A program made the translations under genes and the position numbers. Positions 31,588 through 37,324 of a stretch of DNA of 37,498 nucleotides are shown here, piece after piece. This DNA comes from Treponema sp. Lineage in GTDB: Bacteria > Spirochaetota > Spirochaetia > Treponematales > Breznakiellaceae. Each line of letters begins with the position of its first letter. Within the stretch, counting starts at the first letter, position 1. The stretch covers positions 1-37,498 of the forward strand of contig JAIRUQ010000088.1 in assembly GCA_031254315.1 (NCBI GenBank), in the 5' to 3' direction. The notes beneath the pieces were generated by a model that made no database searches, was not told where the DNA came from, and saw nothing but the letters and a program-made list of their open reading frames with translations.

Positions 31588-32112
31588 ATGGCAAAAAAAT
31601 TAACACAACTCCAAAACATGATTTATGAAATTCGCGGACAAAAGGTCATGCTTGACAGCGACTTGGCAAGATTATATGAAATAGAAACAAAAGCTCTTAA
31701 TAGGGCTGTCAAAAGAAATATAGAGCGTTTTCCCGATATTTTTATGTTTCAATTGACGGAAAAGGAACTTGATTCTTTGAGGTGCCAAATTGGCACCTCA
31801 AACGAAGGAAAGGGCGGCAGGCGTTATTTACCTTATGTCTTCTCAGAGCATGGTGTCCTTATGCTCTCTAGCGTATTAAACAGCAAAAAAGCCATAAGTG
31901 TCAACATTGAAATAATGGTAACCTTTATAAAAATGCGTCATTATGTGATTTCAAAAAACGATACAAATGAGCAAATTGCCGAATTACGGAAACTCCTCAT
32001 GCTCTACGTTGAGAAGAATGACAAACGGGTAAATGAAATTATTATTGTACTGAACAATCTTATTGAGCATCCTCCAAAAACCAGAACGATAGGCTTTACT
32101 GCTGAAAATTAG
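31588..32112 (+). CDS. ORF6N-domain DNA-binding protein
   Basis: A 174-residue protein with an N-terminal ORF6N domain (about 8-115): IYEIRGQKVMLDSDLARLYEIETKALNRAVKRN, RFPDIFMFQLT, GGRRYLPYVFSEHGVLMLSSVL. A helical C-terminal tail follows (about 125-174). ORF6N / KilA-N proteins are common in phages and mobile regions and are presumed DNA-binding; their targets are mostly unknown. The gene contains a perfect 27-nt inverted repeat (31776-31802). It is probably leaderless. It opens an accessory patch with a candidate small RNA and a broken toxin-like gene. Confidence 0.85.
   Translation: MAKKLTQLQNMIYEIRGQKVMLDSDLARLYEIETKALNRAVKRNIERFPDIFMFQLTEKELDSLRCQIGTSNEGKGGRRYLPYVFSEHGVLMLSSVLNSKKAISVNIEIMVTFIKMRHYVISKNDTNEQIAELRKLLMLYVEKNDKRVNEIIIVLNNLIEHPPKTRTIGFTAEN
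31776..31802 (+). repeat. Perfect inverted repeat inside the ORF6N gene
   Basis: TTTGAGGTGCCAA (31776-31788), A, TTGGCACCTCAAA (31790-31802): thirteen paired bases on each side of one central base. It lies in coding sequence for SLRCQIGTSN. It could be an operator, an mRNA hairpin or a recombination site. Confidence 0.85.
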
Positions 32113-32189: not shown

Positions 32190-32218
32190 TTGACAATATA
32201 CCGTAAGTGGGGTATATT
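32190..32218 (+). promoter_or_regulatory. Consensus-like promoter of a candidate small RNA
   Basis: TTGACA (32190-32195), exactly 17 nt, TATATT (32213-32218). It has a perfect -35 box, and no open reading frame follows in the same direction. Confidence 0.75.
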
Positions 32219-32224
32219 TTAAGT

Positions 32225-32331
32225 ATCTCCGAAAGGGAGAAACTCCGAAGGAGTTCCGCCACTGGAGGAGGCGGCATTGTAGCCCCCTCTGCCGAACCCG
32301 GTTTTGCTTATGCAAGACCGGGCGATTTTTT
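32225..32331 (+). ncRNA. Candidate structured small RNA, about 105 nt
   Basis: Three hairpins stand almost without linkers: TCTCC (32226-32230) / GGAGA (32236-32240) with a GAAAG loop; AACTCC (32241-32246) / GGAGTT (32250-32255) with loop GAA; CCGCC (32256-32260) / GGCGG (32270-32274) with loop ACTGGAGGA. An 11-bp terminator stem with a T tract closes it. An alternative hairpin (32268-32275 with 32282-32289, one C-C mismatch) excludes the third one, so the molecule may switch. No reading frame with a ribosome binding site is present. Promoter and terminator set the plus strand. I do not recognise a known RNA family. The 32113-32346 gap holds only this unit. Confidence 0.7.
32297..32331 (+). 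terminator. Intrinsic terminator of the candidate small RNA
   Basis: Stem CCCGGTTTTGC (32297-32307) / GCAAGACCGGG (32312-32322), eleven pairs including one G-T, loop TTAT, followed after CGA by six T residues (32326-32331). On the minus strand it has no T tract, so it does not serve the convergent gene. Confidence 0.9.
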
Positions 32332-32346
32332 ATGGGGATGCTACAT

Positions 32347-32904
32347 TTACTGCCCGATTATTGAGCGCAGTTCTTCATAAGTCCATGTGAATAATTCTCC
32401 GCTCTTTTCAAAAAAACAAATGAACGAACCTTCGCCTTTCCGCTCTTTCAATTCTCCGGCTATCTTGGCTTTTACGTTTCCTACAGACAGATCTGATAAA
32501 AGCCAGATAAACACCGAATGTTTTTTTGTTAAGGCACAGTTTTTTGTCAGCAAAGAGCCTTGTTTATATCCGTACTTGAATTGTGTCCCTAAAGTTGCTC
32601 TTGTTCCAGATACGGTTTTCATTTCCGTAATTTCCCCGTCCAGTACCAAATCGGCGCATTGCTTCCTACTCTCCTACTGTATAACCTTCTCCGGCAGAAA
32701 ATACGCCACACGCCCCCGTCCGGTTAAAATCCGTGCTTGGGACATTTCTCTCTTCCATTTGTCCGGTTCCCGGTATTCTTCGGTAAGGCGGCTCTTGGCT
32801 ACCCAAATATTTGTTTCTGTGGGTATCCATTGTTCACTAGAAAATAAAGCCGAGGCAAGAGTTAAGGACTTTTCGATGTTCAAACGATGTTGCTCAGGAG
32901 TCAT
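32347..32904 (-). pseudogene. Toxin-like (CdiA-CT / nuclease-like) gene interrupted by one in-frame TAG
   Basis: Two open stretches, 32904-32677 (76 residues, MTPEQHRLNIEK...) and 32673-32350 (108 residues, ESRKQCADLVLDGEITEMK...), are in the same frame and separated only by TAG at 32676-32674. Read through, they form one coherent protein of about 185 codons. The C-terminal half has DLVLDGEITEMKT, an E-x-K arrangement like nucleases of contact-dependent-inhibition or phage-head-associated toxins, and ends FTWTYEELRSIIGQ. The family call is by eye and tentative. Most likely a nonsense-mutated toxin domain; amber readthrough is the alternative. It lies 19 bp from the activase gene. Confidence 0.65.
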
Positions 32905-32923: not shown

Positions 32924-35900
32924 CTACGACACTTTCTTCAAACTTCGCGCGTTCATTATGAGCATCTGCAGACGGTTTTCTATATTCGCGAAACTTACAT
33001 CGGGGTCGTAGTCTAAGGGCAGTATTTGAATGTCGGGATGTTGCTCTTTGATTCTCTTGATTATTCCGCGACCGCAGATGTGGTTTGGAAGACAGCCGAA
33101 GGGCTGGAGAATTGCAAAGGAGCGTATGCCCTTTGCGGCGTAGTGCAGAATGTCGGCGGCAATTAAGAACGATTCGCCGGATAGTATCGAGTGATGCATT
33201 ATGTGATCGCTTAATTTAGCGACTTCTTCCAGAGTAACGTCGCTTTCATATAATGGGTGCATTTTTGCGATACGGTCGGTGTGTTTTACGGCGAAGTCCA
33301 TGAATTTACTGCCTACTTTTGCGAATAGATTGTCGTATAACGAATGTTTTACTTTGAATTGTTTCATTTCGCAAAGGGTGTGGTTTAGGAAAAGGTGGCG
33401 GTAAATGCCGTACATTCTTGGGAAAATAACTTCCATTCCGTTTTTTTCAAGATATTTTTCTACTTCCAGATTTGACGCCGGATGAAATGTTAGAAGATAC
33501 TCGCCCTGCATAAATACCTGCTCCTTCAATTTTGAGCGGTCATAGCGGACTTTGCATAACTCCTTTATTGCCCTCTTAAAAGGTTTTATTGTTCCGAAGA
33601 GACCTCTTTTAGCAAGCCCTTCTGATATTTCCTTAAACGCCTTATCTACTACTTTATCGGTCTGACCTTTTTGTAGTTCATAGGGACGTATTCTGCGCCG
33701 TAGGAATTCAAGAGCGTCCGCCTGTATTATGCTCCAAACAACATTTGAGTAAGTTATAGGAGTAAAGTTCATTCCGGGGTGGGCGTTTTTTAGATCAAAC
33801 ATATCTGTTGTGATTACCGGCACTTGAGGGAAGCCTGCTTCATCAAGGGCTTTTCTTGCTAAGGGCATGTAATTGGAAAGACGGCAGTCGCATAACACTT
33901 TGCCGGTTCCTATTACGGTATTGTTGGGATCGTACTTTCCGCTTTTAAGGGTAAGGATGGCTTCGCCGATTACAATTTGAGCGGGAAGGCACATGTCGTT
34001 ATGCACATATTTTTTTCCCATCGCTATAGCTTCCGCGCCTGCCATTGGCAGAGGTTCCGCTCTGTAGCCGTCATTGACAAGAGCGCTACTTACTATCAAA
34101 CAAAACGCCCTGCTGACATTTGGGATGAGAATGACTTTTTGTTTGTCGGTTTTGTTGAGTTTTACAGGATAGGGATCGCCGAGCGGCTTTGCGTTATGTG
34201 TCACTTTTTTACGGCGGATCATTACCGTTTCTATAAAAGAGCGAACCCTTATGCGCAAGGGTCCTGCAATTTCGCTTTCGTCCATTTTTAAGATGAGCGG
34301 AGACTTGCCTGAAATTTCATCCATTATGCGCGTAATTTCATCGGTGTAGACAGCGTCGTGTCCGCAACCAAAATTAAAAATGTCCACATACTCCAGCGCC
34401 GGATGTTCAGCCGCGACTATCGCCCCTGAAAGAAGGCGTGCGTGGTTATTGTTGGTAATCTCAACGCGCGATTTGCCAAGCGGCACTTCTTTTAGATTGG
34501 GAAGGGAATCAAGCGTTAGTACGGGTATTCCTATACTTGTAAAATAGCGCGAAAGATTGTGATTTATGTGTTCATCATACTGATAATGCCGCCCTGCGAT
34601 AACTACAGCGAAATCTCCCTTGCGCGTAACATCATCAATAATTTTTTTGCCGTTATCTGTCATGGCGCGGTTAAAGTCTTCCAGCGCGTTTTCTCCCTGT
34701 TTGATCGCAGAAAGGACGGTTTTTTCAGGTATATTGAAAGTTTGTCGCATATAACGGCAGAGCTGGAAGTCCTGATCCCTTTTTGAGAACCAGTGGCAGA
34801 TTGGCGTATCAAACGGGATGTTGTGTTTTTCTTCGGGGTTATTTGAAAATCTTATAGACAGCGGATAGCCTTTCAGAACAGGGCATGTAAATGTGCTGAA
34901 ACGTTCTGGATTGTCAGGCGGCAACCTGTTAATCTGCGGAAAGAAAATCCTGTCTACCTTTTTTTCTATTAAATCCTCGATATGCCCGTGAACCAGTTTT
35001 GCCGGGAAGCAAACCGTATCGGAAGCAACATACTGTATGCCTTTCTCGTACAGCTTCCGCGAACTTCTGGCGGAGATTTTTGTCTTAAAGCCAAGAGCGC
35101 CCCAGAACACTTTCCAGAACGGCATGTTACGCCAAAAATCCAGCACGCGCGGAATCCCTATTGTAATATCCTTTGACGGCAGAAGCTGTGTAAACGGATA
35201 ATCCTTAAAGACGAGTTCATCGCGGATTTTTACCATGTCGGGAACTGAATTCATTATTTGAGTTCTTTTGTTTACTTCTTCACGTAACGCAGGATCATTG
35301 GGGTCGCCGACAAGCTCACCGCGTTCACAGCGGTTGCCTGTAACCCATGTAAGACCTTCTGTGCCTTGCGGCGATTTTGAAAAGCGCACCAAAGTACGGT
35401 TACAGTTATTACTGCAGAACGGGCAGATTACATTGGCTTCCTGTGTGTAGTCAAAGTCCTTAATTGCCTCAAAACCGATAAAGCGCGAACGCTCACCCGT
35501 GCCGTGAGGTGAAGTGTAGCCGTGTTCCGCGATATGACGTTTTGTAAGAAGGGCAATCCCGATCGCTCCCATCTCTCCGGGGAAAGGGGAGCGCACTATG
35601 GACTTGCCGAGGTACTGTTCCAGCGCCCTCAGTACCGCGTCATTTTTGAGAGTACCGCCTTGCACGACAATTTTATCTCCAAGCTGGGCGGTGTTTGAAA
35701 TACGCACAACTTTGGTAAACACATTTTCTACTATTGAACGGCACAGTCCCGCCATAATGTCATCGGCTTGTTTACCGTTTTTTTGCTCTGTAATGATTGT
35801 ACTGTTCATAAAAACCGTACAACGACTGCCAAGGCGGGCGGGATTTTTAGCGTTAAACGCTATCTCTGCGATTTTATCAACAGGAATATGAAGAGTTTCC

Positions 35901-37324
35901 GCGAAAGTTTCCAAGAATGAACCGCATCCCGAAGAGCAGGCTTCGTTCACAGTTATATTTGTAACAATACCGTTTGAAATATTAATCGCTTTCATGTCCT
36001 GACCGCCAATGTCAAGAATGAAACTCACTCCGGGAATATATTTTTGCGCCGCTGCCGCGTGAGCGACTGTTTCTACCGTGTGAAAATCCGCGCCGAGAGC
36101 CTTGTCGAATAACAGTTCCCCATAACCTGTTGTTCCAAGAGCGAGAACCTCAAGATTGATCCCGGCATCTTGATACTTTTTGTACATATCCATCAGAGCC
36201 TGTTTGATAACTTTAAGAGGCTCGCCTTTGTTCGGGCTATAAAAACAATCGACTACATTTTCATTTTCGTCTATCAAAACAAATTTTGTAGTGGTAGAAC
36301 CAGCGTCAAGTCCCATGTATACGCGCAAAGTTTCCCCTCTTTGTAAACCCGACGCGTTCTTGTTAATTGTCTGCATTTTATGGCGTGCGGCGAAATCATC
36401 CCTCTCGCCCTCGCTGTTAAAGAAATTCAGGTTTTGCGTAAAAGAATTGCCGGCTACAATTTCCCGGTACATTGAAAGAGTTGTAAGCGCCGCCTCGGGG
36501 CTAAAACGCATTTCCTCGTTCTGAAACATCTCGTTGATTGAAAGTGCGGCTCCGAAAGCTATGAACAACTCTGCATTCGGCGGTACGATAATTTCCGGTT
36601 CTTTAAGTCCAAGCCGCTCGGCAAAAACTCTAATCAGAGTGGGATTGAAAGTGAGCGGTCCGCCTTCAAAAACAACGGGTGGATGTATTTCGAGTCCCTG
36701 CGCCAGTCCGCCGATTGTTTGTTTTGCAATCGCGTGAAAGGTTGAAAGGGCGATATCTTCAAGCAAGCCGCCCTGATTCAAAAGCGGCTGAATATCGGTC
36801 TTGGCAAAAACTCCGCAACGTCCTGAAATGTCGTACACCTGCGTACCTTTCGCCGCGAGAGCGTCAAACTTTTCAACAGGCGTGCGTAACAGGGAAGCCA
36901 TCTCGTCGATGAACGCTCCAGTTCCCCCGGCGCAACTTCCGTTCATGCGCATGTCCCCTGCGGCGAGGCGGTTTGTCGCTTTATCATGGTAGAAAAAAAC
37001 GATTTTCGCGTCCTGACCGCCGAGTTCTATCGCGACCTTTGCCTGCGGATAAAAAGTCCTTACGGCGATGGAGTTTGCAACAACTTCCTGAATATATGAC
37101 GCATGGAGCACTTCTGCGATAGTCCTGCCCCCTGAGCCGCAAAAGGCGAGCCGGAACTGTTCCTGAGGATATTTCGAGAAAATATCCTGCAGAAATACGC
37201 GTACCTTCTCGCTTTGGCAGGCGTTGTGCCGCTCATAACGTGAAAAAAGAACCTCTTTTGTGTCGCTTTGTATCACCACAGCCTTAACGGTCGTGGAGCC
37301 TACATCAATTCCTATGTGTAACAT
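32924..37324 (-). CDS. Giant acyl-CoA dehydratase activase (2-hydroxyglutaryl-CoA dehydratase activator family)
   Basis: A 1466-residue protein. First ASKHA ATPase domain (about 1-275): IDVGSTT (6-12), GGQDAK, and cysteines Cys131 (GSCAGG) and Cys170 (GRCGVF), matching the bridging [4Fe-4S] cysteines of HgdC. Second ASKHA domain (about 335-600): LDAGSTTTK, GGQDMK, ACSSGCGS (Cys463, Cys467) and SRCTVF (Cys502). Then a CPFCSNNC motif (634-641), a DUF2229-like region (about 710-930) and a long C-terminal part resembling the dehydratase-like CoA-enzyme component. Family members drive ATP-dependent one-electron transfer to dehydratases or reductases. No dehydratase genes are adjacent, so its partner is unknown. 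No Shine-Dalgarno sequence. Confidence 0.9.
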   Translation of the reverse strand: MLHIGIDVGSTTVKAVVIQSDTKEVLFSRYERHNACQSEKVRVFLQDIFSKYPQEQFRLAFCGSGGRTIAEVLHASYIQEVVANSIAVRTFYPQAKVAIELGGQDAKIVFFYHDKATNRLAAGDMRMNGSCAGGTGAFIDEMASLLRTPVEKFDALAAKGTQVYDISGRCGVFAKTDIQPLLNQGGLLEDIALSTFHAIAKQTIGGLAQGLEIHPPVVFEGGPLTFNPTLIRVFAERLGLKEPEIIVPPNAELFIAFGAALSINEMFQNEEMRFSPEAALTTLSMYREIVAGNSFTQNLNFFNSEGERDDFAARHKMQTINKNASGLQRGETLRVYMGLDAGSTTTKFVLIDENENVVDCFYSPNKGEPLKVIKQALMDMYKKYQDAGINLEVLALGTTGYGELLFDKALGADFHTVETVAHAAAAQKYIPGVSFILDIGGQDMKAINISNGIVTNITVNEACSSGCGSFLETFAETLHIPVDKIAEIAFNAKNPARLGSRCTVFMNSTIITEQKNGKQADDIMAGLCRSIVENVFTKVVRISNTAQLGDKIVVQGGTLKNDAVLRALEQYLGKSIVRSPFPGEMGAIGIALLTKRHIAEHGYTSPHGTGERSRFIGFEAIKDFDYTQEANVICPFCSNNCNRTLVRFSKSPQGTEGLTWVTGNRCERGELVGDPNDPALREEVNKRTQIMNSVPDMVKIRDELVFKDYPFTQLLPSKDITIGIPRVLDFWRNMPFWKVFWGALGFKTKISARSSRKLYEKGIQYVASDTVCFPAKLVHGHIEDLIEKKVDRIFFPQINRLPPDNPERFSTFTCPVLKGYPLSIRFSNNPEEKHNIPFDTPICHWFSKRDQDFQLCRYMRQTFNIPEKTVLSAIKQGENALEDFNRAMTDNGKKIIDDVTRKGDFAVVIAGRHYQYDEHINHNLSRYFTSIGIPVLTLDSLPNLKEVPLGKSRVEITNNNHARLLSGAIVAAEHPALEYVDIFNFGCGHDAVYTDEITRIMDEISGKSPLILKMDESEIAGPLRIRVRSFIETVMIRRKKVTHNAKPLGDPYPVKLNKTDKQKVILIPNVSRAFCLIVSSALVNDGYRAEPLPMAGAEAIAMGKKYVHNDMCLPAQIVIGEAILTLKSGKYDPNNTVIGTGKVLCDCRLSNYMPLARKALDEAGFPQVPVITTDMFDLKNAHPGMNFTPITYSNVVWSIIQADALEFLRRRIRPYELQKGQTDKVVDKAFKEISEGLAKRGLFGTIKPFKRAIKELCKVRYDRSKLKEQVFMQGEYLLTFHPASNLEVEKYLEKNGMEVIFPRMYGIYRHLFLNHTLCEMKQFKVKHSLYDNLFAKVGSKFMDFAVKHTDRIAKMHPLYESDVTLEEVAKLSDHIMHHSILSGESFLIAADILHYAAKGIRSFAILQPFGCLPNHICGRGIIKRIKEQHPDIQILPLDYDPDVSFANIENRLQMLIMNARSLKKVS

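Follow-up and report, generated by a model that had tools for sequence, protein, structure and literature searches.

We analyzed a stretch of 37,498 nucleotides from Treponema sp. (assembly GCA_031254315.1, contig JAIRUQ010000088.1; the window in what follows), and in it a predicted small RNA of ∼106 nucleotides (positions 32226–32331, plus strand), whose gene converges on the 3′ end of a disrupted nuclease gene (32347–32904, minus strand). Judged by sequence comparison, the locus joins the gene of a conserved, structured RNA and that of a CdiA_C-like nuclease in one module. Compensatory changes maintain the RNA helix, the convergent arrangement recurs, and the nuclease family has conserved acidic and lysine residues. 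We favor the interpretation, with some reservation, that the RNA is the antitoxin (immunity RNA) of the convergent nuclease toxin.

A Conserved RNA Helix with Compensatory Changes

A DNA search of 59 genomes, covering the window's own genome, its genus and its order, returned eight clear matches besides the window (E values 1.7e-16 to 5.6e-8), all within the genus; matches at E values of 0.01–1 were treated as chance. A covariance model built from eight sequences matches 14 of 39 genomes of the genus at E ≤ 0.1, including that of the window. One covariance match (G017a, E value 1.7e-10) was set aside as it adjoins an integrase-like frame and lacks the core loop, as judged by eye, and another (G018, E value 0.08) as doubtful. 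The homologous loci with named records belong to Treponema sp. metagenome-assembled genomes, which we take from their isolate names to be of termite-gut origin.

The family shares a core that consists of GCC-AC, the 5′ strand of an 8-bp helix (S2), GGCNTTGTA and the 3′ strand of S2, followed by the terminator. In the window, S2 would pair positions 32265–32272 with 32282–32289 (plus strand) around the loop GGCATTGTA. Our alignment A6 comprises 28 distinct cores, none from outside the genus and its family f1 (it excludes G060, identical in sequence to G027, G292:C76, which carries a loop insert, G003 and all RNAs of other sequence). S2 is 95.5% paired in this alignment, and seven of its eight pairs show changes on both sides. 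The covariation score of the whole structure is 0.454, compared with 0.123 (standard deviation 0.018) for shuffled alignments and at most 0.115 when the structure is slid, and RNAalifold recovers S2 unaided. A possible pseudoknot helix, S1, would join GCC (32258–32260) to GGC (32273–32275) on the same strand. The 5′ hairpins are variable and dispensable in the family, several relatives beginning almost directly at the core.

The core is single per transcript in the window and in the group A/B loci examined. Elsewhere, two whole RNA genes stand in tandem before one nuclease gene (G012:C7:6153–6455, L052/L054), and at L055 there is, ahead of the RNA, what appears to be the terminator of another copy. 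At three loci (L050, L046 and L047) the RNA is retained beside what appear to be just the last codons of a nuclease gene, and the RNA thus seems to outlive its partner.

Promoter, Terminator and Fold of the Window RNA

An initial annotation of this DNA had proposed a structured small RNA that has a promoter and a terminator of its own, and had named compensatory changes in homologues as the check; the covariation described above supports the proposal. A sigma-70-type promoter (TTGACA, 17 nucleotides, TATATT; 32190–32218, plus strand) precedes the RNA, with 11/12 matches. It ranks first among 21 promoter-like sites found between 29000 and 36500, where shuffled sequences average 11.6 sites, and comparable promoters lie 5′ of the homologous RNAs. 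We placed the RNA 5′ end from the −10 box and its 3′ end at the T run. The predicted RNA has a folding energy of −49.7 kcal/mol (z-score −5.25, equalled by none of 200 shuffles), and its minimum-energy fold holds two small 5′ hairpins (32226–32255, plus strand), which are missing or different in relatives, and the terminator. This intrinsic terminator (32297–32331, plus strand) is directed at the nuclease 3′ end; its hairpin (32297–32322) has 11 pairs, seven of them G-C, and the tail CGATTTTTTA. As the annotation had claimed, it is GC-rich and ends in a T run, and it heads the list of 15 terminator candidates, another of which has 13 pairs but just three G-C.

Other details of the annotated structure had to be revised. 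Of three closely packed hairpins, the two at the 5′ end are seen in our fold, but the third, CCGCC...GGCGG, said to expose GGAGGA, is missing both from the minimum-energy fold and from the 28 homologous cores, and the suggested role in CsrA or ribosome binding falls with this unconserved hairpin. The hairpin thought to compete with it (32268–32275 with 32282–32289) has the 3′ strand of the conserved helix S2, but the 5′ strand that the family supports lies 3 nucleotides upstream. The claim that no reading frame is present was loose, for a mechanical GTG open reading frame (ORF) of 57 amino acids (32207–32380, plus strand) spans the RNA, but homologues carry indels there. A search of Rfam with the window and 20 relative loci gave no match over the gathering threshold; a lysine riboswitch match in cmscan (11.5 bits versus a threshold of 30 bits, E value 1.3) was treated as chance.

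The window copy has an A·C mismatch in S2 (32269, 32285), which it shares with G137, whose nuclease match contains a stop too, and its own minimum-energy fold uses a register 3 nucleotides off the conserved S2. The window RNA may therefore be decaying along with its partner gene. We conclude that the RNA is very probably real.

The Convergent Gene Resembles CdiA_C Nuclease Genes

The neighboring gene had been annotated as broken and toxin-like, and both points hold: it matches an intact relative with an E value of 1.6e-73 and contains one in-frame TAG, which divides it into two pieces (32674–32904 and 32347–32649, minus strand). It ends 16 bases past the T run of the RNA on the opposite strand, and in the loci examined the 3′ end of the nuclease gene directly adjoins the RNA terminator or overlaps with it. 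Intact relatives have ∼185 amino acids. Glu-56, Asp-88, Glu-97 and Lys-99 are invariant in 14 sequences and at least 90% conserved in 46, which is the PD-(D/E)XK pattern, and these four are the putative catalytic residues. Among the 46 nucleases, 31 match CdiA_C (PF18451) and two match DUF5798 in Pfam (E ≤ 0.01), and no other family is found; L124 (36.3 bits) and L146 (27.1 bits) are relatives that score over the PF18451 cut-off. The two window pieces match nothing in Pfam, and a search of NCBIfam with four nucleases returned no family. Our nuclease profile reaches the structure 4g6v (“adhesin/hemolysin”), which we take to be a CdiA toxin, at an E value of 0.018, second to a designed protein at 0.017. 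An AlphaFold model of the nuclease is confident (predicted local distance difference test score 92.7). PF18451 toxins are tabulated as PD-(D/E)XK tRNA-cleaving enzymes (tRNases) in the portion of a review used here (PMC9990079), and the nuclease is probably a tRNase toxin.

No match to the nucleases tried was found in plasmid and phage records, and IMG/VR holds two relatives of the MuF-type protein L191 and none of L115. An XRE-type regulator gene adjoins the nuclease at L051, L032 and L071; it lies upstream of the nuclease at two of these loci and on the far side of the RNA at the third. As a candidate protein antitoxin, XRE was rejected: tblastn with three XRE queries, the only neighbor gene tested, matched 4 of 73 loci, three of which were the sources of the queries, and the fourth match lies 1,042 nucleotides off on the other strand.

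Two further genes flank the module in the window. An ORF6N-domain gene (31588–32112, E value 4.1e-36) precedes the RNA and shares its strand, and a BadF/CoA-activase-like gene of 1466 amino acids (BcrAD_BadFG and DUF2229; 32924–37324) lies just past the nuclease start, on the strand of the nuclease.

The Convergent Arrangement Recurs While the RNA Sequence Varies

Nuclease homologues in the genus with ∼25–35% identity carry, at the same convergent position, a promoter together with a short RNA-like segment of other sequence. Of 390 genomes of the order, 56 contain matches to our nuclease profile; these belong to families f1 and f3. We examined 75 matches, which are 73 of the 78 profile matches and two from an earlier search; the five profile matches left out of the 3′-end counts are two pieces at G020:C73, G114:C8, G028:C219 and G013:C10. 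A stop codon and enough flanking sequence are present in 69 cases. A strict convergent promoter (at least 10/12) followed by a terminator occurs at 40 of these 69 nuclease ends and at none of 182 other ORF ends from the same loci. To compare the promoter alone, ORFs near the nuclease were removed from the control, leaving 112 ORF ends. A convergent promoter of at least 10/12 is then found at 51/69 nuclease 3′ ends and at 10/112 control ends (p = 9e-20), and one of at least 9/12 at 62/69 and 37/112, respectively. On the gene's own strand, promoters of at least 10/12 amount to 3/69 compared with 15/112 in the control.

Ten of the 75 matches had come from searches with the RNA or its DNA and had contributed to the profile; we therefore made a check with the Pfam model PF18451. 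Across 394 genomes of the class, this model locates 24 places, 21 of them with a stop in reach. Counted without a control of its own and in a region (−230..+130) slightly wider than that of the control comparison, a convergent promoter of at least 9/12 is present at 18/21 and of at least 10/12 at 16/21 (families f1, f3, f10 and f18). Seven of the 21 places overlap the 69 ends described above, and the 14 new ones divide into 11 with and three without the promoter.

In four relatives (L190, L191, L195 and L167), the nuclease-like domain is located C-terminal to a phage MuF domain (MuF-CdiA_C fusions), and a convergent promoter is present at all four (9/12 to 12/12); no Phage_Mu_F domain was found on four window-type proteins. 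Small downstream ORFs are presumed immunity genes of MuF toxins in 89.4% of 191 cases, according to the part of PMC5576092 used here. As a control, we collected 30 MuF loci, 29 of them with a stop, and found a convergent promoter of at least 9/12 within −150..+60 at 14/29; four of these 14 are fusions from the nuclease searches (G065, G037, G040 and G080). Some of the 10 others appear to be structured and could represent additional RNA genes. At three MuF 3′ ends (L230, L231 and L234), a convergent promoter of 9–10/12 and hairpin-rich sequence lie at the stop codon, and the C-termini are unlike CdiA_C by eye. Toxin domains of other kinds may likewise have RNA partners.

RNA sequences vary between nuclease clades while the arrangement is kept, also in the four phage MuF fusions. 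By eye we distinguish at least five RNA shapes: that of the window and those of L125 (TCGGGGGCATTTCGG), L133 (GTCCGAGTT..CAGCCTGGGGCA), L168 (AGCGAGGACGTGGGATTAAAAG) and L162 (GTTGGGCTGG); our covariation analysis covers the window's RNA type and its nearest relatives. The nuclease of L113 is 57% identical to the window-type L033, yet its RNA is of other sequence. L113, which encodes an intact nuclease, and L160 and L162, which are C-terminal matches alone, have a markedly different RNA (GTTGGGCTGG..CCCGGCCTGCC) at this position, as though an exchange of the RNA had taken place.

Proposed Function of the RNA

A nuclease with a recurrent structured-RNA neighbor under a strong promoter of its own suggests a toxin and its RNA antidote. 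In such a two-gene module, the RNA would bind the PD-(D/E)XK CdiA_C-type nuclease, probably a tRNase toxin, directly and would block its active site, as ToxI does on ToxN and RCd22 on AbiF. With its strong promoter, the RNA would remain more abundant than the toxin, which would be released if the locus were lost. We infer transcription of the RNA, toxicity, nuclease activity and tRNA target of the protein, and binding and neutralization of the one by the other. As its nuclease gene is broken, the window copy is probably a relic or a guard against related nucleases. More tentatively, and with slightly less than even confidence, we propose that spirochaetes use convergent immunity RNAs rather than proteins against CdiA_C-type tRNase toxins, including those of phage MuF proteins. 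These RNAs would form a new class of RNA antitoxins, possibly tRNA mimics, with RNA folds repeatedly replaced under a fixed gene arrangement.

Several observations weigh against an immunity RNA. S1 is 98.8% paired yet almost invariant in our alignment. G006 has the RNA but no nuclease match (the genome is 70% complete). Seven of the 69 nuclease ends have no promoter at 9/12, a threshold at which the control rate of 37/112 is high. The three PF18451 genes without a promoter (G877, G625 and G605) all belong to family f13, and the PF18451 count has the wider region and no control of its own, as stated above. Four window-type relatives score at most 18.2 bits with PF18451, compared with the cut-off of 26.6, and Foldseek returned no significant solved fold for the nuclease, the best match being a viral cap-snatching endonuclease (E value 0.06). 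Among the other MuF gene ends, 10/25 have a convergent promoter of at least 9/12, which is about the background of 37/112, and the convergent promoter may not be special to CdiA_C.

The remaining points of this kind favor the main rival explanation, an antisense RNA of the type I kind. Convergent type I pairs such as txpA/RatA and bsrG/SR4 overlap at their 3′ ends and encode small membrane peptides, and RalR/RalA pairs a nuclease toxin with an antisense RNA. Here, convergent transcription makes antisense control possible, and the two genes meet or overlap at the RNA terminator, as noted above. On the nuclease side of the shared hairpin the window lacks a T run, and the nuclease mRNA could therefore continue across the RNA gene. 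The RNA would then pair with the 3′ end or read-through tail of this mRNA, and block or destabilize it, as the RNAs of txpA/RatA and bsrG/SR4 do with their targets. At the mRNA 5′ end, pairing of the RNA core is slightly stronger for cognate than for non-cognate combinations (−25.97 versus −24.75 kcal/mol, 16 pairs), and in nine of 16 cases, where five are expected, the cognate mRNA ranks within the top 5 of 16. However, cognate pairing is close to that of shuffled RNA (mean z-score −0.6, and −0.55 for the mRNA without its last 60 nucleotides). Moreover, pairing requires neither a compensatory helix nor a loop common to nuclease groups that are ∼25% identical. This conservation as a structure leads us to favor direct binding, and we regard antisense control as unlikely, though it is the alternative to be taken most seriously, above all for pairing at the 3′ end.

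Three other explanations appear improbable to differing degrees. The recurrent pairing of a structured RNA with a nuclease would also fit a cofactor or guide that the nuclease needs, in an RNA-protein effector rather than a toxin with its antidote. We doubt this strongly, as variability in the window-type RNA is greatest in a short 5′ hairpin, which is absent from several members, and CdiA_C toxins are listed as tRNases with no RNA partner named in the consulted portion of PMC9990079. Its own promoter and terminator and the orphan copy in G006 would suit a free-standing regulatory small RNA that merely lies beside the gene, as the initial annotation had framed it. Since a convergent promoter is usual at this position in relatives of the broken gene, this frame is probably wrong, and distant nucleases and MuF-fused domains show the same arrangement with other RNA sequences; a chance neighbor is accordingly hard to credit. 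Inverted repeats directly behind the stop codon could finally be a DNA element without RNA function, such as a recombination site or a shared bidirectional terminator. The promoter hexamers at 16–18-nucleotide spacing are enriched on one strand alone and the RNA helix covaries, which makes a DNA element most improbable.

Comparison with Known Systems

If the RNA is an antidote, then it differs from convergent type I pairs (txpA/RatA, bsrG/SR4) and from RalR/RalA, where a toxin gene likewise has a small RNA that is convergent or antisense to it, in that type I RNAs work through base pairing and do not depend on a conserved fold for protein binding. Related nuclease domains are known from CdiA_C/cd13442 tRNases and from MuF polymorphic toxins (PMC9990079 and PMC5576092, in the parts used here), and four relatives in our data are themselves MuF-CdiA_C fusions; unlike in those accounts, a convergent RNA gene here adjoins the toxin 3′ end. 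We found no CdiA_C or MuF toxin with an RNA antitoxin among the listed titles and beginnings of abstracts from the open-licence literature, in which one paper (PMC7180214) contains both “RNA antitoxin” and “polymorphic toxin”; this is weak evidence of novelty. The terms “RNA antitoxin” and “immunity RNA” were not found in the accessible part of PMC3482391.

The usual view of polymorphic and MuF toxins is that small proteins counter them. An RNA at this position would, if our interpretation is correct, provide immunity without a protein and would extend RNA antitoxins to CdiA_C-like nucleases. The numerous natural pairs, in which unlike RNAs accompany enzymes of a single family, would then be a good system for RNA-protein coevolution. 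A convergent promoter at the stop codon of a toxin gene suggests itself as a simple search rule.

Type III systems include the TenpIN family, and their toxins have the ToxN-type fold. As described in part of PMC5086642 for ToxIN and CptIN, they resemble our module in that a small structured RNA is the proposed antitoxin of an adjacent nuclease toxin, in an intrinsic terminator that adjoins the toxin gene and perhaps in the core, which in our RNA may be pseudoknotted. Their RNA, however, lies upstream in one operon and consists of short tandem repeats, whereas ours is convergent, has its own promoter and is usually a single unit; their toxins are of the ToxN type, whereas ours are CdiA_C-like, with no ToxN, CptN or TenpN family among the 46 nucleases. 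As gene order, toxin family and tandem repeats all fail, we do not file the RNA-nuclease pair as type III, although it may work like one. In AbiF-RCd22 (PMC12373285, in the sections used here), a prophage-borne toxin is likewise neutralized by direct binding of an adjacent non-coding RNA, but the toxin is Abi_2/AbiF and the RNA motif is another. By analogy, type III systems and AbiF-RCd22 would thus be the closest to our module in mechanism.
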